NCBI RefSeq assembly: GCF_017876755.1
Contig: NZ_JAGIOO010000001.1
Coordinates: 2,728,001 to 2,792,000, forward strand
DNA from: Crossiella equi
GTDB lineage: Bacteria > Actinomycetota > Actinomycetes > Mycobacteriales > Pseudonocardiaceae
Length of the DNA: 64,000 nucleotides
Direction of reading: 5' to 3'
Below the pieces are notes generated by a model that worked only from the letters and a program-made list of their open reading frames with translations, made no database searches and was not told where the DNA came from. The position numbers and the translations under genes were made by a program. Below, piece after piece: positions 43,842-58,079 of this stretch; positions within the stretch are counted from its first letter, which is position 1; every line of letters starts with the position of its first letter.

Positions 43842-45035
43842 ATGGCACAGAAGTCGTTCCAGGGAGACGTGATCCCTGGTCAGCACGTCGACATCCGCAT
43901 GTGGACCAAGGCCGAGACCGTTGAGGCGCAAGCCATGCAGCAGCTGCGCAACATCGCCGCGCTGCCCTGGGTCTTCAAGCACGTCGCCGTGATGCCCGAC
44001 GTCCACTACGGCAAGGGCGCCACGGTCGGCTCGGTCATCGCCATGCAGGGCGCCGTCTCGCCCGCCGCGGTGGGCGTGGACATCGGCTGCGGCATGACCG
44101 CGGTGCGCACCTCGCTGCGCGCCACCGACCTGCCCGACGACCTGCGCCGCCTCCGCTCCGGCATCGAGAAGGTCGTGCCGGTGGGCTTCGGCATGCACAA
44201 GAGCGAGGCCTTCAACCAGCGCGACGCCTCCGACTGGACCCAGTTCTGGCAGGGCTTCGACGCGCTGACCTCCGTGGTGCGCCAGGAGTCCGACCGGGCG
44301 CTGCGCCAGATGGGCACCCTCGGCGGTGGCAACCACTTCCTCGAGGTGTGCCTGGACGAGGACGACCAGGTGTGGCTCATGCTGCACTCGGGCTCGCGCG
44401 GTATCGGCAACCTCCTGGCACAGCACCACATGGAGATCGCGCGCGGCCTCACCCACAACGCGGCGCTGCCGGACCCGGACCTCGCGGTGTTCATCGCGGG
44501 CACCCCGCAGATGGCGGCCTACCGCCACGACCTGTACTGGGCGCAGGAGTACGCGCGCCGCAACCGCTCGGTGATGATGCGGCTGGCGTGCGACGTCGTG
44601 CGCAAGCAGTTCCCGCAGGTGAAGTTCGAGGAGCCGATCTCCTGCCACCACAACTACGTGGCGGAGGAGACGCACTTCGGCGAGGAGCTGCTGGTCACCC
44701 GCAAGGGCGCGATCCGCGCGGGCCAGGGCGACCTGGGCATCATCCCGGGCAGCATGGGCACCGGCAGCTACATCGTCCGCGGCCTGGGCAACCCGGACTC
44801 CTTCTGCTCGGCCAGCCACGGCGCGGGCCGCCGCATGTCGCGCAACCAGGCGCGCAAGCGGTTCACCGCCGAGGACCTGGCCGCGCAGACCGCGGGCGTG
44901 GAGTGCCGCAAGGACTCCGGGGTCGTGGACGAGATCCCGGCGGCGTACAAGGACATCAACGAGGTGATCGCGAACCAGCAGGACCTGGTGGAGGTCGTGG
45001 CCAAGCTGCGCCAGGTCGTGTGCATCAAGGGCTGA
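43842..45035 (+). CDS. rtcB: RtcB family RNA ligase
   Basis: A 397-residue RNA 3'-phosphate (or cyclic phosphate) to 5'-OH ligase that uses GTP and manganese. Motifs: MPDVHYGKGATVG near residue 51, VDIGCGM near 79 with the metal-binding Cys, GGGNHF near 162, SCHHNYV near 267 and HGAGRRMSR near 326, where the His is guanylylated. Length fits the shorter bacterial branch. ATG 43842 lies seven bases after TAACCT, leaderless. There is no RtcA, RtcR or archease neighbour, so it may act in tRNA or rRNA repair alone. Confidence 0.93.
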   Translation: MAQKSFQGDVIPGQHVDIRMWTKAETVEAQAMQQLRNIAALPWVFKHVAVMPDVHYGKGATVGSVIAMQGAVSPAAVGVDIGCGMTAVRTSLRATDLPDDLRRLRSGIEKVVPVGFGMHKSEAFNQRDASDWTQFWQGFDALTSVVRQESDRALRQMGTLGGGNHFLEVCLDEDDQVWLMLHSGSRGIGNLLAQHHMEIARGLTHNAALPDPDLAVFIAGTPQMAAYRHDLYWAQEYARRNRSVMMRLACDVVRKQFPQVKFEEPISCHHNYVAEETHFGEELLVTRKGAIRAGQGDLGIIPGSMGTGSYIVRGLGNPDSFCSASHGAGRRMSRNQARKRFTAEDLAAQTAGVECRKDSGVVDEIPAAYKDINEVIANQQDLVEVVAKLRQVVCIKG

Positions 45036-48656: not shown

Positions 48657-50489
48657 ATGCCACCACGAGACTGGTGTGCCACCGAGTCCGCGAAAATAAC
48701 AACACTTCTGCGCGAACGCGGCCAGACCGAGGGACCCGTTCTCTTCGGTGCCGGTTTCGGCCCGTCCGGGCTACCGCACATCGGCACGTTGTGCGAGGTC
48801 ATCCGTACTTCTTTCGTTCGACAGGCGTTCACCGAGGCGACCGGCCGTCCCACCCGCCTGATCGTCACGGCGGACGACATGGACGCGTTGCGGAAAGTCC
48901 CCGACGGTTTCCCGAACCGTTCCCTGCTCACCCGCCACCTGGGCCTCCCCCTGCACCGGGTCCCCGATCCGTTCGAGCAGCATGAAAGCCTTTCCACCGC
49001 AATCACGACCCGTCTCCGCCGAATCCTGGAAGACTTCGAGGTCGACTGCGAACTGACGAGCAGCGCCGAGGCCTACTCATCTGGTAAGTACGATGACACA
49101 ATCCGCCGTTTCCTGGCGGACCTCCCCGCCCTGAACGCCCTGATCGGCGCCTCGGTGGGCCCGGTCCGCCGGGAGTCCTACAGCATCCTGATGCCGGTCT
49201 CCCAGCACACGGGCCGCATCATCGAACACACCCGCGTCCTGGCCGTGGACCCGGCCGAAGGCACCCTGACCTACGAGATCCCGGCCGACCTGATCATCCA
49301 ACGCCCGGACCTGGCCTACGGCGTGGAACCCCACGAGTACTACGCGGGCGAACCAATCGGCGAACCAATCACCATCTCGGCCCTGGGCGGCGCCTGCAAA
49401 CTCCAGTGGAAGGCGGACTGGGCGATGCGCCTGCTGGCCCGGGGCACGGCCTACGAGATGCACGGTGAGGACCTGACCTCCTCGGCCCAGGTGGTCCGCC
49501 AGCTCTTCACCCGCCTCGCCGAACACCCCCCGATCCTCTTCGCCTACGGCCTCTTCCTGGACGACCGAGGCCACAAGATCTCCAAATCCCGGGGCAACGG
49601 CTTCTCCCTCCCCGAGGCCCAGGACTACCTCTCCCACGAAGCCCTCCGCCTCCTCCTCTACCGCAAACCCCGCCGCCCCCGCCGCTTCGCCCCAGCCCTG
49701 ACCCCGGCCATCAACGACGCGGTCCGCCATGAACAGCACCGCGCGACCCACCCCAGAACCGGCGAAGCCGCCCGCCTCCGCCTGCACCGCATCGGCCTGG
49801 CCACCCCGACCCGGACACCGGCCGACACCCAACCCACCGGACCTGCCCACATCACGCCGCCGACCACCGGCGGAATCACCCAAGCCCCACCAGCTCCCGG
49901 TACGGCCGCCCAGCGCACCGCACCGGCGACCGGCACAACCGCCCGAACCCAGGACGAGACCCCGGGCACACCAGGAACACCCGCCAACCCGCAGCCGCCA
50001 GTCCCAGGTCAGCTGGCCGACCGCCCCGGGGCAGCCGACAGCCTCCCGGTCAGCGCGTCCGCCCCGAGCTTCACCACGCTGATTCGCATCCTCGCCGCCT
50101 GCGCCCCCGTCGACTTCGCCGCGGCGGTCGAGTTCCTGGCCCGCTACGGGCGTCGCGTACCACACCCCGAGCTGGTGCGGGCCTGGAACTTCCACGAGGC
50201 CCGGCGCCCCACCGACCAGCCGTGGACGCCGTCGGCGGAGGAAGCAGTTGTGCTGCGACGGGTGGCCGAGGTGCTGGAGAGCGCGCCGCCCAGCGAGGTG
50301 GCCGCGCGGCTGCGTCGTGTGCTCATCGACCACGGACTGGCGGAATCCTGTCGCACGCTCTACCTGGCCCTGCTCGGCCGCCCGCACGGGCCCCGGCTGG
50401 CCACCTGGGTCCGGCTCACCGGGCCCAAACGCTGTCTCCGCCTGCTGCGCGAGTCCCTGTCCCGCACCGAACGAGGTGGTAACCCGTGA
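48657..50489 (+). CDS. lysK: lysyl-tRNA synthetase, class I, with a long Pro/Thr-rich insertion
   Basis: A 610-residue class I LysRS. The HIGH-type motif is in GFGPSGLPHIGT near residue 32, the KMSKS-type motif KISKSRGN near 308, GEDLTSSAQVV near 268, and the C-terminal cage with the conserved ALLGRPHGPR near 587. Between the catalytic core and the cage lies an insertion of about 90 residues (370-465) rich in Pro, Thr and Ala (for example TPPTTGGITQAPPAPGTAA). GGGGAG precedes ATG 48657. The stop overlaps the next start (GTGA), so it is coupled to an aldehyde dehydrogenase, an unusual setting for a synthetase. It may be housekeeping, a resistance copy, or a biosynthetic lysine-activating enzyme. 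Confidence 0.88.
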   Translation: MPPRDWCATESAKITTLLRERGQTEGPVLFGAGFGPSGLPHIGTLCEVIRTSFVRQAFTEATGRPTRLIVTADDMDALRKVPDGFPNRSLLTRHLGLPLHRVPDPFEQHESLSTAITTRLRRILEDFEVDCELTSSAEAYSSGKYDDTIRRFLADLPALNALIGASVGPVRRESYSILMPVSQHTGRIIEHTRVLAVDPAEGTLTYEIPADLIIQRPDLAYGVEPHEYYAGEPIGEPITISALGGACKLQWKADWAMRLLARGTAYEMHGEDLTSSAQVVRQLFTRLAEHPPILFAYGLFLDDRGHKISKSRGNGFSLPEAQDYLSHEALRLLLYRKPRRPRRFAPALTPAINDAVRHEQHRATHPRTGEAARLRLHRIGLATPTRTPADTQPTGPAHITPPTTGGITQAPPAPGTAAQRTAPATGTTARTQDETPGTPGTPANPQPPVPGQLADRPGAADSLPVSASAPSFTTLIRILAACAPVDFAAAVEFLARYGRRVPHPELVRAWNFHEARRPTDQPWTPSAEEAVVLRRVAEVLESAPPSEVAARLRRVLIDHGLAESCRTLYLALLGRPHGPRLATWVRLTGPKRCLRLLRESLSRTERGGNP

Positions 50490-51757
50490 CCGTCACCGAC
50501 ACCCCTATTCCGTCCACTGTGGACTTCCTGGACGTGCGGCAGCGCGCCGCCGCCTTCGCCACCGAGCTCCGGGAGCGCGGTGCGGACATCGTCCGCAGCC
50601 TGTCCGGCTACGAATGCGCCGGGGTGGCCCTGGACGAGATCGAGCGCTCGGTGGAGTTCCTGGACAACCTGCACCACAACCGCGAGTACTTCCGCGGCCG
50701 CGTGCAGGGTGTGACCAGCTTCCTGCCGCTCAACCAGCCCCTGTACGCCACCGTGTGCTTCGGCGTGGTGCCCTCGCTCATGGCCGAGGATGCCGCGTTC
50801 CGGCCACCCACCGTGATGCACCCGCACTACCGCAAGCTGGCCGAGGTGCTCGACCTGCCCCGGCACTTCCCGAACCTCCGGGTGAGCTACCAGGACCGCG
50901 AGGTGTTCGTGGCCCAGCGGGCCCGCCGGACCGACGCGGTGGTGTTCACCGGGTCGCCGGACAACGCGGCCAAGGTGCGCAGGCTCTTCCTCAAGCGCAC
51001 CCTGTTCATCCTCAACGGTTCCGGCCACAACCCGCTCGTCGTCACCGAGACCGCGGACCTGGCCCTCGCCGTGGAGTCCGCACTGCGCGTGGTCCTTTAC
51101 AACCAGGGCCAGGACTGCGCGGGACCCAACGCGATCCTCGTGCACCGCACACGGCTCGCCGAGTTCCGGGAGGCCCTGGTGCTGCGCCTGCGCGGCATCG
51201 AGCACCGGGTGGGCCCGTACGCGGACCCGGAGAACCTGGTCGGGCCCAACAGCGACCCCGACCACGCGTTGAAGATCATCCGGATGTTCAAGGAGGACAG
51301 GGACTTCTGCGTCTACGGCGGTGACATCAACCCGGTGAGCGGGCTGATCCGGCCGACCGTGTTCGAGAAGGACCTCAGCCTCGGCGGCAACTACCACGAG
51401 TTCTTCGCACCCGTGTTCTACCTCCAGCCCTATGACGACGACGCGGACCTGGCGCTGTACTTCACCGACCACCGCTACCGGAACAACGCCATGTACATCT
51501 CGCTGTTCGGCGACAGCGACTACGTGGACTCCCTGCTCGCGACACCGCTGCACGAGGAGGACTCGATCCTGCGGAACACAGACCTGCACCTGACCGAGAA
51601 GGGCTACCTGCCCTACGGTGGCCAGGGCCCGGCGGCGTCCTGCCGGTACGTGGACGGCGAGCGGGTGCTGGGTGCCACGTCACCGCAACGCGACATCTAC
51701 CAGCACCTGGTGGCCCCACGCCTGGGCACAGGGTGCTGGCCGGGTTCAGCGTGCTGA
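50486..51757 (+). CDS. aldehyde dehydrogenase superfamily protein lacking the general-base glutamate
   Basis: A 423-residue ALDH-fold protein, about 70-90 residues shorter at the N-terminus than usual. The cofactor-side PLNQPLYA near 82 and FTGSPDN near 155 are recognisable. The nucleophile is Cys211 in GQDCAGPN. The segment normally ELGGKNP reads NGSGHNP, so Asn177 replaces the general-base Glu; the 34-residue spacing to the Cys equals that of canonical ALDH (268 to 302). The same Glu-to-Asn change is known in CoA-acylating methylmalonate semialdehyde dehydrogenase. The enzyme may therefore transfer acyl groups or run as a reductase. It is coupled to LysRS upstream and MFS downstream. Confidence 0.85.
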   Translation: MTVTDTPIPSTVDFLDVRQRAAAFATELRERGADIVRSLSGYECAGVALDEIERSVEFLDNLHHNREYFRGRVQGVTSFLPLNQPLYATVCFGVVPSLMAEDAAFRPPTVMHPHYRKLAEVLDLPRHFPNLRVSYQDREVFVAQRARRTDAVVFTGSPDNAAKVRRLFLKRTLFILNGSGHNPLVVTETADLALAVESALRVVLYNQGQDCAGPNAILVHRTRLAEFREALVLRLRGIEHRVGPYADPENLVGPNSDPDHALKIIRMFKEDRDFCVYGGDINPVSGLIRPTVFEKDLSLGGNYHEFFAPVFYLQPYDDDADLALYFTDHRYRNNAMYISLFGDSDYVDSLLATPLHEEDSILRNTDLHLTEKGYLPYGGQGPAASCRYVDGERVLGATSPQRDIYQHLVAPRLGTGCWPGSAC

Positions 51758-52944
51758 GCAGTCGTTGGGAGCCGGTCGCCGCGATCAGCACGGTCGCGGT
51801 GGTCGGCCTGGCGACGGGACTCGCCATCCCGCTGGTGTCCCTGAGGCTGGGCGCGGCCGGGGCGTCGGGCACCCTGGTGGGCCTGGCCGCCGCACTGCCC
51901 GCGCTGGGCATCCTCTGCGCCGCTCCACTGACCGGTGTACTCACCCGGCGGCTCCGAGTCAAATCGGTGCTGCTGGGCGCTTTGGGGGCCTCCGCGCTCA
52001 GTCTGCTGCTGCTCACCACGACCGACGACCTGCTCGTCTGGCTGGTGCTGCGCTTCACCGTCGGCGCGGCGGCCGGACTGCTCCTCGCCCTCGGCGAGAC
52101 CTGGATCAACGCGGTGGCGGAGGAAGGTTCGCGCGGCCGCTGGGTGGCCGTCTACACCTCGGTGTTCACCGTGTGCCAGGTGTGCGGGCCGGGGCTGCTG
52201 GCCCTGTTCGGTTCGAGTGGAGAACTACCCGTTCTGGTGACAGTGGCCGCGCACGTCCCCGGCCTGCTTCTCCTGCTCGGCACCCGCTGCGCGGTGGAGA
52301 ACACCCACGGGCCACGGGGTTTCGGGCTGCTCGGCTTCTTCCGCGCCGCGCCGTCCATCGTCCTGGCGGTGCTGTTGTTCAGCTTCTTCGACAGCGTGGT
52401 GCTCGCGCTGTTCCCCTTGTACGGCATGGCCTACGGCCTGCCGGAGAGCGTCGCGGTCCTGCTCGCGGGCGCCGTGTTTTTGGGCGATGCCCTCCTTCAG
52501 GTACCGTTGGGGGCGCTGGCTGACCGGGTGAACCGGCCGCGGCTGCACCTGACCTGCGGTGTGGTGGTGCTGATCGCGGCGCTGGTCATGCCGGTGCTCA
52601 TGACCAGGCCCGTGCTGCTCTGGCCGTCCCTCGTGGTGTTGGGCGGCGCCGCGGGCGGTGTGTACACTCTCGCGCTCGTGCTCGTCGGCGAGCGCTTCCG
52701 GGGTGGCGACCTGGTCACCGCAAACGCATGCGCCGCCACCCTGTGGGGACTGGGCTCCCTGGCGGGTCCTCCGTTGGGCGGGATGGCGGTGCAACTGGTG
52801 CGTCCGGACGGCCTCATGCTCAGCCTCGCGGCGGTGGCGATGCTGTTCCTGGCCGCCGGCGCTACGGTGACGGCATGGCGACCGACAAGCCGATCCCCTC
52901 GGTGTGGACCCGACCGAAACGCGGCCGGGAGCAGCCCGCACTGA
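51733..52944 (+). CDS. MFS transporter
   Basis: A 403-residue major facilitator with about 12 membrane segments and the antiporter-like loop TRRLRVKSVLLGALGAS near 73 and ADRVNRPRLHLT near 263. It starts at GTG 51733 or GTG 51751, both inside the ALDH gene. The last 25 residues (WRPTSRSPRCGPDRNAAGSS) are hydrophilic and are read from DNA that also encodes the start of tetR. It would export a small molecule; no substrate is fixed. Confidence 0.85.
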   Translation: MLAGFSVLSSRWEPVAAISTVAVVGLATGLAIPLVSLRLGAAGASGTLVGLAAALPALGILCAAPLTGVLTRRLRVKSVLLGALGASALSLLLLTTTDDLLVWLVLRFTVGAAAGLLLALGETWINAVAEEGSRGRWVAVYTSVFTVCQVCGPGLLALFGSSGELPVLVTVAAHVPGLLLLLGTRCAVENTHGPRGFGLLGFFRAAPSIVLAVLLFSFFDSVVLALFPLYGMAYGLPESVAVLLAGAVFLGDALLQVPLGALADRVNRPRLHLTCGVVVLIAALVMPVLMTRPVLLWPSLVVLGGAAGGVYTLALVLVGERFRGGDLVTANACAATLWGLGSLAGPPLGGMAVQLVRPDGLMLSLAAVAMLFLAAGATVTAWRPTSRSPRCGPDRNAAGSSPH

Positions 52945-53588
52945 GCCGGGCCCAGATCGTGGCCGAGGCCGTCGCGCTGCTCGACGCCGACGGCCTGGAC
53001 ACCCTGAGCATGCGCAACCTCGGCGCGCGGCTCGGCGCGGGCGCCACCTCGCTGTACCGGCACGTGGCCAACAAGGACGAGCTGATCGAGCTGGTCGTGG
53101 ACGAGGTGTACGGCGAGCTCCAGGTACCGGCCCCCAGCCGGGACTGGCGCGCGGTGGTCTCGGACTGCGCACGCGGCGTGCGGGAGATGGTGCTGCGCCA
53201 CCCCTGGCTGGCCTCCGTGCTCGGCCAGGTCGGGCTGCACTACCTGGGCCCGAACGTCATGCGCCTCAACGAGGCCATGCACGGCCTGTTCGCCGCCGCG
53301 GGCTTCGAGGCCACCGAGGCCGACCTGGCCCTGAGCGCGGTGATGTCCTACGTCATCGGCATGGCGGTCAGCGAGGCCGCCTGGCTGACCACCCTGGCCC
53401 GCAGCGGCCAGGACGAACAATCCTGGGCGGCCAGCCTGCGCCCGGTCGAGCAGGAGGCGGCGGAGAGCTTCCCCCATTTGCTGCGCCAGTTCACGGCCAG
53501 CCCCCCGGACCTGCGCCAGGCCCGGGAGGAACGCTTCGCCTACGGCCTGGACCGCGTATTGGACGGTCTGGCGACCCGGCTCGCCTGA
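52875..53588 (+). CDS. TetR family transcriptional regulator
   Basis: A 237-residue repressor. The N-terminal helix-turn-helix (LSMRNLGARLGAGATSLYRHV) is near 42-62, then the TetR_C-like ligand domain with WLASVLGQVGLHYLGPNV near 113. ATG 52875 lies seven bases after TACGGT (52862-52867), so it can be transcribed leaderless from inside the MFS gene, overlapping it by 70 bases. It probably controls this cassette or the exporter. Confidence 0.88.
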   Translation: MATDKPIPSVWTRPKRGREQPALSRAQIVAEAVALLDADGLDTLSMRNLGARLGAGATSLYRHVANKDELIELVVDEVYGELQVPAPSRDWRAVVSDCARGVREMVLRHPWLASVLGQVGLHYLGPNVMRLNEAMHGLFAAAGFEATEADLALSAVMSYVIGMAVSEAAWLTTLARSGQDEQSWAASLRPVEQEAAESFPHLLRQFTASPPDLRQAREERFAYGLDRVLDGLATRLA

Positions 53589-53728: not shown

Positions 53729-54589
53729 TCAGCCCGGCCCGGCCACCTTAGTGGGGGTGCCCGCGGCACCGCGGCGGCCCCATCTGCCCGGGCCCACCGT
53801 CCGGCCGGTGCCGCTCAGCCTGCCCAGTCCGGCCAGGCCCGCGACGGTCAGGGCGAGCAGCAGGACCGTGCTGGCCGACGCCAGGAAGACCTCGCCCCGG
53901 TCGGTGTGGGCGAAGATGCTCACCGGCAGGGTGCGCCAGTCCGGTGGGTACAGCATGATCGTCGCGCCTACCTCGCCCATGGACAGGGCGAGTGCCAGGC
54001 TCGCGGCACCCGCCATGGCCGGGCGCAGCAGGGGCAGCTGGACGCGCCACAGGACTCGGGCCGGGTGGGCGCCGAGGCTGGCGGCCACCTGGGACAGGGC
54101 CGGGTCGGCGCGGGCCAGGGCGGCCGCGACCATGCTGTAGGTGAAAGGCAGCACGATCATCAGGTGCGCCAGCAGGACGAGCCAGCGGGTGCCGTTGAGC
54201 AGCAACGGCGGACGGCTGAACGCCAGCAGCAGGGCCAGGCCCAGCACCACCGAGGGGACCGCGACCGGGAGGTGCAGCACCAGGTCGACCAGGCGGCGCG
54301 GCAGGCGGGGGAGGCGGCGGACCGCGAGGGCGCCCCAGGTGCCGAGCAGGACCGAGGCGGCGGAGGCGATCACCGCGGTCTGCAGGCTGACCAGGGCACT
54401 GGCCAAGCCGTCACCGGAGACCGCGTCGGCCAGGTGCGTGCCGGTGAATTCCTGGGGCAGTACGCCGTTCCAGGCCGCCGCGGCCGAGGCGAGCACGATC
54501 ATGGCCAGCGGGGCGAGCACCACCACCCCGAACAGCAGCGCGAACAGCGCCCACAGCAGGTAGCGGCTACGCCGCGTCCAGACCAGCAC
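53729..54589 (-). CDS. phnV: phosphonate ABC transporter permease (PhnV-like)
   Basis: A 286-residue permease with six membrane segments (first: YLLWALFALLFGVVVLAPLAMI). The EAA-type loop is QVAASLGAHPARVLWRVQLPL near 182. GTG 54589 follows GGAGCGGG and overlaps the end of the first permease gene by 23 bases. The C-terminal 45 residues are Gly/Thr/Arg-rich and cytoplasmic. It is the last gene of the phosphonate operon. Confidence 0.82.
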   Translation of the reverse strand: MLVWTRRSRYLLWALFALLFGVVVLAPLAMIVLASAAAAWNGVLPQEFTGTHLADAVSGDGLASALVSLQTAVIASAASVLLGTWGALAVRRLPRLPRRLVDLVLHLPVAVPSVVLGLALLLAFSRPPLLLNGTRWLVLLAHLMIVLPFTYSMVAAALARADPALSQVAASLGAHPARVLWRVQLPLLRPAMAGAASLALALSMGEVGATIMLYPPDWRTLPVSIFAHTDRGEVFLASASTVLLLALTVAGLAGLGRLSGTGRTVGPGRWGRRGAAGTPTKVAGPG

Positions 54590-55367
54590 GGCCCGCTCCT
54601 GTTCTGGTGAACACCCACCGGTAGAGGCCGTACAGGGCCAGGGACAGTGCCACGTTGACCACCGCCACCACACTCGCGCGGGGGAAGTCGAAGTTCACGA
54701 TGCCGAGGGTGTAGACGAGCATCGGCAGGGTCACCACGTCCTTGGCACCGATGAACAGCACGATGCCGAACTCGTTCATGGTGAGCAGCAGCGTCAGGCA
54801 GGCACCCGCCGCGAGCGCGGGCCGTGCCTCGGGCAGCACCACCCGCCACAGCACGCGCCACGGCCTGGCACCGAGGCTGGCCGCCACGTCCAGCTGCGCG
54901 GTGGGCAGCTGCCGGAACGCCGCCAGTGCCGGACGCAGTACAAACGGGGTGTAGAAGGTGATCTCGGCCAGCAGCACACCCCACGGGGTGTACAGGAAGT
55001 CGAGTGTGCCCTGCCCCAGCACGGCGTTGAGCACACCCGCGCTGCCGTAGAGGAAGGTGAACGACAGCGCGATGAGGAAGGACGGGAAGGCGAGCACCGC
55101 GTCGACCAGCCTCGACGCGAACCCGGCTCCCGGGAACGGCGCGTAGGCCAGCACCAGTGCCAGGAACGTGCCCAGCACGAGGCACCCCGTCGTGGCGGAC
55201 ACGGCCAGCAACACCGTGCGCCACACCGAGTCCAGGAACTGCTCCGAGCCGAGCACACGCGGCCAAGAGCCCGCGCCGACCGACTCGCCCACCACGAGCG
55301 CAAGCGGGTACACGAAGAAGCCGAGCACCACCAGCAAGGGCGGCAGCAGCCAGAGCAGCCGCTTCAC
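54567..55367 (-). CDS. phnU: phosphonate ABC transporter permease (PhnU-like)
   Basis: A 266-residue permease with six membrane segments from RLLWLLPPLLVVLGFFVYP. The EAA-type loop reads DVAASLGARPWRVLWRVVLPE near 160. It overlaps the ATPase gene by 4 bases. With the downstream permease it forms the heteromeric channel of a 2-aminoethylphosphonate-type importer (binding protein, ATPase, permease, permease order). Confidence 0.85.
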   Translation of the reverse strand: MKRLLWLLPPLLVVLGFFVYPLALVVGESVGAGSWPRVLGSEQFLDSVWRTVLLAVSATTGCLVLGTFLALVLAYAPFPGAGFASRLVDAVLAFPSFLIALSFTFLYGSAGVLNAVLGQGTLDFLYTPWGVLLAEITFYTPFVLRPALAAFRQLPTAQLDVAASLGARPWRVLWRVVLPEARPALAAGACLTLLLTMNEFGIVLFIGAKDVVTLPMLVYTLGIVNFDFPRASVVAVVNVALSLALYGLYRWVFTRTGAGRAGLDAA

Positions 55368-56413
55368 CGGGGCACCAACGGACAGCCGTCGGGCACGGTG
55401 ACGCCCACCCGCTCACCGAGCGCGGGCAGACCCTCCACAGTGGACACCTCGGCGCGCACGGAGCCCAGGCCGTGCAGGTCGAGGTCGAGCCGGAACCCGT
55501 TGCCGCGCCACTGCATCCCGACCAGTCGCGCGGCCAGGCCGGTGCCGTCGGGGTGGACGGTGAGCCGGTGGGGCCGTACGCCGAGGGTAGCGTCCTGGCC
55601 GGTGCGCGTGTCAACCCGGCTGTCCGCGCGCACGCGCAGGTCCCCGAGCTGCACGAGCGGCTGCGTACCCGGACTGAGCACACGCACCGGCAACAGGTTG
55701 GCCGCACCGAGGAAGGAGGCGGTGAACGCCGAGGGCGGCCGCTGGTACAGCTCGCGCGCGGGCCCGATGTCCACCAGCCGCGCGTCCCGCATCACCGCGA
55801 TCCGGTCCGCCAGTGCGAGGGCCTCGGCCTGGTCGTGCGTGACGTGGATGACGGAGACCTCGGGCAGCTCCGCGCGCAGGCGCAGCAGCTCGGCCACCAT
55901 CTCCTCGCGCAGCGCGGCGTCCAGGGCGGACAGCGGTTCGTCCAGCAGCAGCACCGGTGGCCGGATGGCCAGGGCTCGGGCGATGGCCACGCGCTGCTGC
56001 TGCCCGCCGGACAGCTCCCTCGGGTAACGGCTGGAGTAGCCGGTCATGCCGACCAGGCCGAGCACCTCGGTCACCCTCCGCTGGATCTCCCGACGCCCCA
56101 CCCGGCGCGCGCGCAGCCCGAAGGCCACGTTGTCGAAGACCCGCATGTGCGGGAACAACGCGTAGCTCTGCACGACCACACCGAGGCCGCGGCGGTGCGG
56201 CGGCAGGTCGGTGACGTCCACCCCACCCAGGTGCACCCGCCCGGCGCTCGGCGTGAGGAACCCAGCGATGGCCTTGAGCGCGGTGGACTTGCCGGAGCCG
56301 GACGGCCCGAGCAGAGCCAGGGTCTCCCCCGCCGCCACCGACAGGCTCAGTCCGTCCAGCGCCGTGGTGGCGCCGAACCGCACGCTGACGCCGTCCAGCC
56401 GGACCGCGGTCAC
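55364..56413 (-). CDS. phnT: phosphonate ABC transporter ATP-binding protein (PhnT-like)
   Basis: A 349-residue ATPase of the spermidine/iron/phosphonate group. Walker A GPSGSGKST near 36, Q-loop VVVQSYALFPHM near 80, signature RELSGGQQQRVAIARAL near 132, Walker B VLLLDEPLSALD near 154, H-loop VTHDQAEA near 190. A TOBE-like C-terminal domain (about 240-349; LGVRPHRLTVH) follows. GTG 56413 overlaps the binding-protein stop by 4 bases. Confidence 0.9.
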   Translation of the reverse strand: MTAVRLDGVSVRFGATTALDGLSLSVAAGETLALLGPSGSGKSTALKAIAGFLTPSAGRVHLGGVDVTDLPPHRRGLGVVVQSYALFPHMRVFDNVAFGLRARRVGRREIQRRVTEVLGLVGMTGYSSRYPRELSGGQQQRVAIARALAIRPPVLLLDEPLSALDAALREEMVAELLRLRAELPEVSVIHVTHDQAEALALADRIAVMRDARLVDIGPARELYQRPPSAFTASFLGAANLLPVRVLSPGTQPLVQLGDLRVRADSRVDTRTGQDATLGVRPHRLTVHPDGTGLAARLVGMQWRGNGFRLDLDLHGLGSVRAEVSTVEGLPALGERVGVTVPDGCPLVPR

Positions 56414-57426
56414 CGGCCGACCGCCTTGCCGTAGGCGGCCAGGTCGGTCTCCAGGCGGTCCAGCACGGCGGTCCAGTCCGGCTGCCACAGCACCACACCG
56501 GAGAGCTCCGCGCGGATGCGGTCGGCCAGCTCGCCCTCGGCGCGCACGTCGGCCCGCCCCGGGGTGCCGAAGCCCTCGGGCGCGGTGCGCTGGACCTCCG
56601 GGGAGAACAGGAAGGCCAGCAGCTTCTTCGCGGACTCGCCGTGCGGGGCGTTCGCGGCCAGGCCCGCGTGGTACGGGATGGCGAAGGTGGAGCGCTCCCC
56701 GGCGGCGTTGGCGGGGAAGAAGATCCGCATGTTCGCCTTGTCGTTGTTGATCAGCGCGAGGTTCATCTGCAGGTCGCCGTTGGCCACGAACAGCTCACCC
56801 TTGGCCACCTTGGGCTGGAGCTTGCCGGTGGAGGCGGACGGGCCGACGTTGTTGGCTTCCAGGCGCTTCAGGTACTCCAGCGCGCCGTCCGGGCCGAAGA
56901 CGTGCTGGAGCTGGAGCAACACCGCTGTGCCGTCGCCCGCCTGTCCCGGCGTGGAGTACTGGAGTTTGCCCTTGAACCGCGGCTCGAGCAAATCGTCCCA
57001 CGTACGCGGGGCCGGAGTGGCGCGGTCCGGGTTGTACACCATGACCAGGTAGTTGTTGACCATCGCCGCGTGCCGGTTGCCCGGGTCGCGGTCGGTGGCC
57101 TGGTCGGCGCCGGGCACGGCGTGCTCGGCGAGCAGGCCGAGCCTGGCGGCGCGCTGGGCGAAGGGCGGCAACGTGACCAGCACGTCGGCCTGCGGGTTGG
57201 CGCGCTCCTTCTCCATCCGGGAGACGATGCCGCCGGAGCCGTCCTCGACCACGTTCACCTTCACGCCGGTCCGCTGCGTGAACTCGGCGAACCGCTTGGC
57301 GTACCAGTCCTTGAGGCCGTCGGCGCTGTAGACGACCACGGTGTCCGAGCCGCCCCCGCCCCCGGTGCCGCCGCAGCCGGAGGCGAGCAGGAGCAGGGCG
57401 AAGGTGGCGGCGAGCACCCGTCGCAT
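56410..57426 (-). CDS. phnS: phosphonate-binding lipoprotein (PhnS-like)
   Basis: A 338-residue binding protein. GAAGGAG fixes ATG 57426 over a GTG at 57441. The signal peptide ends at LLASGCGG (Cys near 18). The mature part follows the iron/AEP-binding group: VVVYSADGLKDWYAKRFAEF, VVEDGSGGIVSRMEKERANP, ADVLVTLPPFAQ, YLVMVYNPD and LQYSTPGQAGDGTAVLLQL. Those features match 2-aminoethylphosphonate-binding proteins, and the neighbours support it; iron or phosphate substrates are less likely. Confidence 0.85.
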   Translation of the reverse strand: MRRVLAATFALLLLASGCGGTGGGGGSDTVVVYSADGLKDWYAKRFAEFTQRTGVKVNVVEDGSGGIVSRMEKERANPQADVLVTLPPFAQRAARLGLLAEHAVPGADQATDRDPGNRHAAMVNNYLVMVYNPDRATPAPRTWDDLLEPRFKGKLQYSTPGQAGDGTAVLLQLQHVFGPDGALEYLKRLEANNVGPSASTGKLQPKVAKGELFVANGDLQMNLALINNDKANMRIFFPANAAGERSTFAIPYHAGLAANAPHGESAKKLLAFLFSPEVQRTAPEGFGTPGRADVRAEGELADRIRAELSGVVLWQPDWTAVLDRLETDLAAYGKAVGR

Positions 57427-57437
57427 GGCGTTCTCCT

Positions 57438-58079
57438 TCACGGGATCAGCAGATCGGGTAGTTCATGCACAGAGCCGAGGACGTGGGTTGCGCCCGCGGC
57501 GGTGAGGGTGGCAGTGTCGTGGGCACCGGTGAGGACACCCGCGGCGATCGACGCGCCCGCGCGGAGTCCACTGTGGACGTCGGATGCGGTGTCGCCGACG
57601 ACCGCGATGTGCCGGACGTCATCAACGCCCAGCCGCAGTGCGGCGGTGAGCACGAGGTCTGGGTATGGACGGCCTCGACCGGCTTCGGCCGGGGTGAGGC
57701 TGAGGTCCACCAGGTCGCGCCAGCCGAGCGCGGCCAGGATGCGATCGCGGGTGGGCGGCGCGAACCCGGTGGCCAGTGCCACGCGGATCCCGTTGTCCCG
57801 CAACGCGGTGATGGTCTCGGCCGCGCCCGGCAACGGCTCGCAGTGGCCCGCGTCGACCAGGTCGGCGTAGGCGGCCTCGAAGGCGCGGTTCGCGGCCTGG
57901 GCACGGTCCTCGTCGCCGAACAGCGTCCGGAAGACGGTGATCTTGGACTCGCCCATGGTGCGGCGGACGTGGTCCAGCATGTCAGGAGTGGCGTCCACGG
58001 CGGTGGTGAACGCGCGCTCCACGAGGCCCTCGTCGAGCACCGTGGTGCCCGCCATGTCCAGTACTGCCAGCGTGATCAC
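57438..58079 (-). CDS. phosphonatase-like HAD hydrolase
   Basis: A 213-residue HAD-superfamily enzyme of the phosphonatase-like (TIGR03351) group. Motif I DMAGTTV (nucleophile Asp8), a Lys in the cap motif MGESKITVFR near 47 that matches the Schiff-base Lys of PhnX, motif II LATGFAP near 100, and motif III/IV VVGDTASDVHSG near 160. It would split phosphonoacetaldehyde to acetaldehyde and phosphate. It overlaps the FAD oxidase gene by 4 bases, and that partner is the usual one for this group. Confidence 0.88.
   Translation of the reverse strand: MITLAVLDMAGTTVLDEGLVERAFTTAVDATPDMLDHVRRTMGESKITVFRTLFGDEDRAQAANRAFEAAYADLVDAGHCEPLPGAAETITALRDNGIRVALATGFAPPTRDRILAALGWRDLVDLSLTPAEAGRGRPYPDLVLTAALRLGVDDVRHIAVVGDTASDVHSGLRAGASIAAGVLTGAHDTATLTAAGATHVLGSVHELPDLLIP

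Follow-up and report, generated by a model that had tools for sequence, protein, structure and literature searches.

A candidate carboxylate reductase with a class I lysyl-tRNA synthetase core, encoded beside a putative exporter in Crossiella equi

What would a class I lysyl-tRNA synthetase (LysRS)-like gene do in a run of overlapping genes with an aldehyde dehydrogenase (ALDH)-like gene and a major facilitator superfamily (MFS) transporter gene? The question is raised by a stretch of 64,000 nucleotides from Crossiella equi (GCF_017876755.1, contig NZ_JAGIOO010000001.1, positions 2,728,001 to 2,792,000), referred to below as the window. Our comparative analysis suggests, with a probability of roughly 0.6, that the LysRS-like and ALDH-like proteins are the two parts of one enzyme, which would activate lysine, take it over on the catalytic Cys of the ALDH-like part and reduce it to lysinal, the product being exported by the MFS protein. 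A sequence-only reading of the same DNA had described four genes of these families, TetR included, and the coordinates and families were confirmed by the open reading frame (ORF) list and by Pfam (tRNA-synt_1f 264 bits, Aldedh 84 bits against a cut-off of 23, MFS_1 108 bits, TetR_N and TetR_C_1). The features of the locus, in window positions, are as follows.

48657..50489, plus strand: LysRS-like gene, 610 amino acids, proposed activating (adenylating) part (PF01921; best Foldseek match 1irx)
48774..48785, plus strand: PHIG, a HIGH-type motif, residues 40-43 of the LysRS-like protein (H41 invariant in 18 cassette sequences and all canonical sequences aligned)
49575..49589, plus strand: KISKS, a KMSKS-type motif, residues 307-311 of the LysRS-like protein (K307, I308, S309 and K310 invariant in 18 cassette sequences)
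49824..50048, plus strand: Pro/Thr-rich insert, residues ~390-464 of the LysRS-like protein (by alignment; predicted local distance difference test, pLDDT, below 50)
50486..51757, plus strand: ALDH-like gene, 423 amino acids, proposed reductase part (PF00171, 84 bits; fused to LysRS in other bacteria)
51014..51016, plus strand: Asn177 codon of the ALDH-like gene, at the place of the general-base Glu (by alignment)
51116..51118, plus strand: Cys211 codon, nucleophile of the ALDH-like protein (Cys in 20 of 21 aligned sequences)
51751..52944, plus strand: MFS transporter gene, proposed exporter, with a conserved GTG start at 51751 assigned by comparison (ORF from 51733; PF07690, 108 bits)
52875..53588, plus strand: TetR regulator gene with ATG start, a neighbour outside the conserved cassette (Pfam TetR_N and TetR_C_1)

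The ALDH-like protein of the window, used as query against 84,980 species genomes, revealed 29 loci, comprising 6 actinobacterial loci, 22 proteobacterial loci (9 Photorhabdus, 5 Xenorhabdus, 5 Pseudomonas, a Brenneria, an Enterobacteriaceae metagenome-assembled genome (MAG) and a Thiomonas MAG) and one locus of a Paceibacter MAG (L035). A class I LysRS-like gene or its remnant lay directly upstream of the ALDH gene in 28 of these 29 loci. The two parts are encoded by separate genes, in the order LysRS, ALDH, MFS, in all six actinobacterial loci and are joined in one uninterrupted frame of 938-971 amino acids in 16 of the 22 proteobacterial ones. Both fusions scanned with Pfam (L013, L016) carried tRNA-synt_1f and Aldedh; weak LuxC and tRNA-synt_1 matches were also obtained for L013, and the chain of ANL domain, carrier and terminal reductase of a carboxylic acid reductase (CAR) was not found in these two fusions or in the window proteins. 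LysRS and ALDH further share one frame in L028, where it runs off the contig end, while the sequence of L027 opens at a contig end with two codons and a stop, beyond which it is one open frame. The cassette is in pieces in L026, L031 and L034, and in L032 all that precedes the ALDH gene is the C-terminal remnant of a LysRS, which lies in a different frame; the hosts of L026, L031, L032 and L034 are Photorhabdus asymbiotica, Brenneria alni, the Thiomonas MAG and Pseudomonas syringae pv. cilantro. In nine further Pseudonocardiaceae genomes encoding an ALDH of at least 73% identity, a LysRS-like gene adjoins in every case. An MFS gene related to that downstream in the window was found in 20 of the 29 loci and a TetR relative, at E 1e-3, in none of them, some loci being cut by contig ends. 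The co-occurrence of four families, by which the sequence-only reading had proposed to check the cassette, is borne out for LysRS and in large part for MFS, and TetR had to be dropped as a cassette member.

The LysRS and ALDH trees agree in lineage order. Both set Pseudomonas apart from a group of Actinobacteria with Xenorhabdus and Photorhabdus, with moderate support for this join (89/86 and 82/69). In the ALDH tree, the 24 LysRS-linked sequences form one clade (100/99), with L035 as its sister, set against the sequences linked to ANL enzymes and L099, a distant relative. In the tree of 26 LysRS sequences, the 18 from the cassette likewise group in a single clade (100/99), next to three class I LysRS from Alphaproteobacteria.

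The active site of the ALDH-like protein is in agreement with a role in acyl transfer or reduction. Alignment to solved ALDHs upheld the earlier observation that Asn177 stands opposite the general-base Glu, with Cys211 34 residues further on, at the usual spacing; the oxyanion-hole Asn83 is present as well. Among 21 aligned ALDH sequences the general-base Glu is found in none, its place being filled by Asn (13), Phe (7) or His (1), while the Cys is kept in 20 and the oxyanion Asn in all 21. The general-base Glu is lost also in ALDHs acylating coenzyme A (CoA), and its absence here therefore suits a thioester destined for reduction or transfer rather than hydrolysis. The AlphaFold2 model of the fusion L016 (pLDDT 78; predicted template-modelling score, pTM, 0.55, too low to judge whether the two active sites face each other) matched in Foldseek the class I LysRS 1irx first (E 1.1e-21) and NAD(P)-dependent ALDHs next (1uxv, E 2.3e-17).

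More distant relatives of the ALDH-like protein, about 30% identical, connect it to adenylate-forming enzymes of another kind. Seven of the 11 long frames among these relatives were scanned, three of them from C. equi itself, and all seven were fusions of an AMP-binding (ANL) domain with Aldedh. Nineteen larger ALDH regions were also searched with two ANL queries, taken from L062 and L039 (the match in L065 is consequently a self-match). Two of these regions were cassette members (L069, L070) and three (L105-L107) held weak generic ALDH matches without ANL; in 13 of the other 14, which are a chosen subset of the ALDH relatives found, an ANL domain was fused to the ALDH or encoded within ~3 kb of it. 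A thiamine pyrophosphate (TPP) enzyme is encoded in 9 of the 14, and three Streptomyces plasmid regions share the order ALDH, TPP enzyme, AMP/CoA ligase, one of them with a small gene between. Taken with the tree, these links show an ALDH family that goes with acyl-adenylate makers and whose activating partner has been exchanged, a class I synthetase holding the place of the ANL enzyme in the cassette.

The three ANL-ALDH fusions of C. equi lie at C1:6151761-6152873, C1:3537991-3539121 and C1:2539225-2540322 (L039-L041, L065-L067), and in the third (L041) the catalytic Cys is replaced by Arg. Recurring sets of an ALDH-like protein, an ANL/AMP ligase and a TPP enzyme were seen in L042, L043, L044, L068, L071, L072, L098, L100, L103 and L104. 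Those on Streptomyces plasmids adjoin ATP-grasp and GNAT genes, with NikS and cysteine synthase in L042 and L044, and such sets look like an undescribed biosynthetic module.

The LysRS-like protein has kept the catalytic apparatus of a class I synthetase and scores well below the family of lysine--tRNA ligases proper. For the NCBIfam lysine--tRNA ligase equivalog, whose cut-off is 648 bits, it scored 338 bits, and the fusions L016 (379 bits) and L024 (281 bits) likewise stayed below the cut-off. PF01921 was its only match, with no ANL (AMP-binding) domain. The class I signatures PHIG and KISKS are invariant in 18 cassette sequences and, together with most of the pocket positions examined, are the same as in the alphaproteobacterial LysRS. 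One of those three alphaproteobacterial proteins is annotated as lysine--tRNA ligase and encoded near mnmE and mnmG; the other two records are without gene annotation. The AlphaFold2 model of the LysRS-like protein (pLDDT 80, pTM 0.77) was aligned by Foldseek over its full length to 1irx as the first match (E 9.5e-23). The Pro/Thr-rich insert, a low-confidence part of this model, is absent from the 14 relatives aligned.

An acid must be activated before it can be reduced to an aldehyde. The simplest account of the cassette is an adenylation step, hand-over to the Cys of the ALDH, reduction by hydride and export. The class I synthetase core would use ATP to convert lysine, or a close lysine-like amino acid, into an aminoacyl-adenylate, from which the ALDH Cys would accept the aminoacyl group as a thioester. 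Reduction of this thioester by NAD(P)H would yield lysinal, an alpha-amino aldehyde that might cyclise to an imine (by our chemical reasoning a seven-membered one) or dimerise, and the MFS protein would export the product. The two proteins, forming a single polypeptide in most proteobacterial carriers, would thus constitute a carboxylate reductase with a tRNA-synthetase core as its activating module instead of an ANL domain, probably working without tRNA. The comparison shows the gene order, the fusion, the agreement of the trees, the intact synthetase motifs, a Cys lacking the hydrolytic Glu and the ties of the wider ALDH family to adenylate formers; lysine as the substrate, the hand-over without tRNA, the reduction, the product and its export are what we infer. 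The sequence-only reading had already suggested that the synthetase activates lysine, that the ALDH-like protein takes or reduces the group and that the product is exported under TetR control; the core of this idea, an amino acid activated by the synthetase and taken over by the ALDH-like protein, is strongly backed by the fusions and the ANL ties, and control by TetR is not conserved. As for a possible home of the cassette in the leupeptin pathway of Photorhabdus and Klebsiella, the portion of PMC11480411 available to us held no enzyme details.

Several observations weigh against the proposed enzyme, which is an explanation drawn from genes and sequences. Four proteobacterial copies (L026, L031, L032, L034) are broken or reduced, so that the trait is dispensable in places. 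Eight of the nine Photorhabdus loci lack the MFS gene, as does L035, whose ALDH (42% identity), with the same Asn, stands without a LysRS-like neighbour, the genome giving elsewhere one weak LysRS-like match (E 7e-4). No ANL enzyme was found near L099. In the synthetase, the C-terminal anticodon-cage part is still present, including a GPRL-type motif near the end, and the cassette LysRS-like protein may still charge tRNA. In the ALDH-like protein, the nucleotide motif FTG[ST]P[DE]NA keeps FTG and has its second Gly replaced, which makes NAD(P)H no more than a putative cofactor.

The last two points feed two alternatives. The LysRS-like part could charge tRNA-Lys and the ALDH-like part reduce the resulting ester, a reaction with a parallel in haem synthesis, where glutamyl-tRNA reductase acts on Glu-tRNA; the retained cage region and the full-length model alignment with 1irx favour this. 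The ratio of C-terminal to catalytic identity bears on it in both directions: it is normal (0.74-0.87) in four cassette pairs within lineages, and falls to 0.36-0.58 in seven pairs that cross lineages or include L030 and to 0.39-0.47 in three cassette-alphaproteobacterial pairs, against 0.66-0.80 in four canonical pairs (33-64% catalytic identity) and 0.94 in one close canonical pair. These values hint at relaxed tRNA binding and no more; since the ALDH relatives moreover sit beside ANL enzymes, which need no tRNA, we consider a tRNA-dependent reduction unlikely. It is also conceivable that the ALDH Cys passes the activated amino acid to an amine or another acceptor, giving an amide or ester without any reduction. 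The loss of the hydrolytic Glu would suit any acyl-thioester chemistry, the altered nucleotide motif points the same way, and MshC, a class I synthetase relative that makes an amide, is among the Foldseek fold matches of the LysRS-like protein. However, the NAD(P)-dependent ALDH fold and the FTG motif are kept, no conserved acceptor-making gene was seen among the cassette neighbours examined, and the TPP enzymes in 9 of the 14 distant ALDH regions belong to a class that usually acts on aldehydes or 2-oxo acids. Such a transferase strikes us as quite improbable.

The same two-part enzyme might act on another basic or modified amino acid, such as ornithine, beta-lysine or hydroxylysine. F34, H269 and G298 are invariant in the 18 cassette sequences and different in all 8 canonical sequences compared; yet G33, W251 and Y297, which we take to be lysine contacts, show no change, and the three alphaproteobacterial LysRS share 38-42% identity with the cassette sequences over the catalytic part. 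A substrate other than lysine is accordingly a possibility we hold to be real, though doubtful. The sequence-only reading had also offered a housekeeping enzyme or a resistance copy; in either case the LysRS would stand by chance beside an unrelated ALDH operon. The LysRS-like protein is indeed the one PF01921 protein above the family cut-off in the genome, and synthetase copies can serve as self-protection, according to the part of PMC1475646 available to us. Nevertheless, the genome encodes two class II LysRS above the TIGR00499 cut-off, which answers the question raised earlier of whether such an enzyme is present and means that the window protein is not the sole LysRS; class II LysRS above the cut-off occur as well in all 12 other carriers tested, the score of the window protein is far below the equivalog cut-off, and resistance would leave the fusion in 16 loci unexplained. 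This last alternative is therefore disfavoured as highly improbable.

The cassette is rare and scattered. C. equi was alone with the close ALDH form among 296 sampled actinobacteria, and alone with the LysRS-like form among 198. Within its family, the close ALDH form occurs in 10 of 297 genomes, its own included, 22 more having only matches of ~30%. Counting already-known carriers in, the close form was found in 5 of 298 genomes of the genus of L016 and in 2 of 149 genomes of the family of L024; the fusion L024 gave no match at the DNA level to E. coli genomes. The ALDH identity of 56-63% between the window and proteobacterial copies, together with the patchy spread, suggests horizontal transfer of the cassette between lineages. 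That a carrier-free bifunctional synthetase-reductase converting free lysine to lysinal, with one exporter, makes up a minimal natural-product pathway, and that this pathway was passed horizontally between actinobacteria and proteobacteria living with insects or plants, is a broader proposal to which we give about even chances.

The gene overlaps of 4, 25 and 70 bases reported earlier across the four genes were recovered upon re-counting on the ORFs. The second is probably an artefact of start choice, given that the in-frame GTG at 51751 restores the 7-base overlap of ALDH and MFS seen in all six actinobacterial relatives. The 4-base overlap of LysRS and ALDH is possible in five of these six, L007 having a 16-base gap. 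The MFS tail of the window (52860-52944) overlaps tetR by 70 bases and is unlike that of relatives, as though a rearrangement had brought tetR in; this divergent tail and the lack of TetR in the 29 loci mark tetR as a local neighbour. Neighbours inspected differ between lineages, only some having been examined with Pfam, and no larger conserved cluster is claimed. An RtcB RNA ligase gene (43842-45035, 444 bits) lies a few kb upstream of the cassette, and an ATP-binding cassette importer operon with a HAD-type hydrolase (53729-58079, minus strand; translations judged by eye) seems apart from it. In the Paceibacter MAG, the N177-type ALDH gene overlaps a SET-domain gene by 4 bases (L035:9144-11251).

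To our knowledge, activation in reductases of this sort is by ANL domains or LuxE-type proteins, or by a charged tRNA in the case of glutamate. No description of a LysRS-ALDH pair or fusion was found in the literature searched, which covered titles and the starts of abstracts and excluded most subscription journals. Two-part adenylating reductases are a known kind, and the novelty would lie in the activating module. If the proposal is true, the synthetase-ALDH fusion reduces amino acids without a carrier, as specifically as a translation enzyme selects them, and offers a direct route to reactive alpha-amino aldehydes; it also shows how a synthetase that class II LysRS had made redundant acquired another function. 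Pyrazines can form from amino aldehydes, as stated in the part of PMC8658869 available to us.

Among known systems, an ATP-activated acyl group is reduced to an aldehyde by LuxC/LuxE, by CAR (A-PCP-R) and by glutamyl-tRNA reductase. All three use other activators, and the latter two have other reductase folds. LuxC is an ALDH relative, and its family PF05893 (cut-off 21 bits) matches one fusion, L013 (28 bits); L035 reached 19.3 bits, and the family was unlisted for the window ALDH-like protein and L016. The cassette LysRS resembles class I LysRS (1irx and the alphaproteobacterial enzymes) in catalytic fold, motifs and pocket, and differs in its fast-changing C-terminal part across lineages, its linkage or fusion to an ALDH and its occurrence beside class II LysRS. 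The ANL-ALDH fusions and ANL/ALDH/TPP sets (L039-L041, L042-L044, L062 and others) likewise combine a Glu-less ALDH with an adenylate former, but with ANL in place of the LysRS core, an ALDH only ~30% identical and Phe or His at the Glu place. The MetRS-like/cupin hydrazine synthetases contain a class I synthetase-like domain whose product, a free aminoacyl-adenylate, serves a partner fused to it (PMC11705231, as far as the part available to us describes them); these differ from the cassette in the synthetase, in the partner fold and in forming an N-N bond instead of performing a reduction. Judging from the available part of PMC10179220, GriC makes an acyl-AMP that GriD reduces to an aldehyde in grixazone biosynthesis of Streptomyces griseus, an activating enzyme coupled to a reductase partner as the cassette parts are by fusion and adjacency; unlike the cassette synthetase, GriC is an AMP-binding protein with no tRNA-synthetase relationship, and the likeness to GriD is one of described function.

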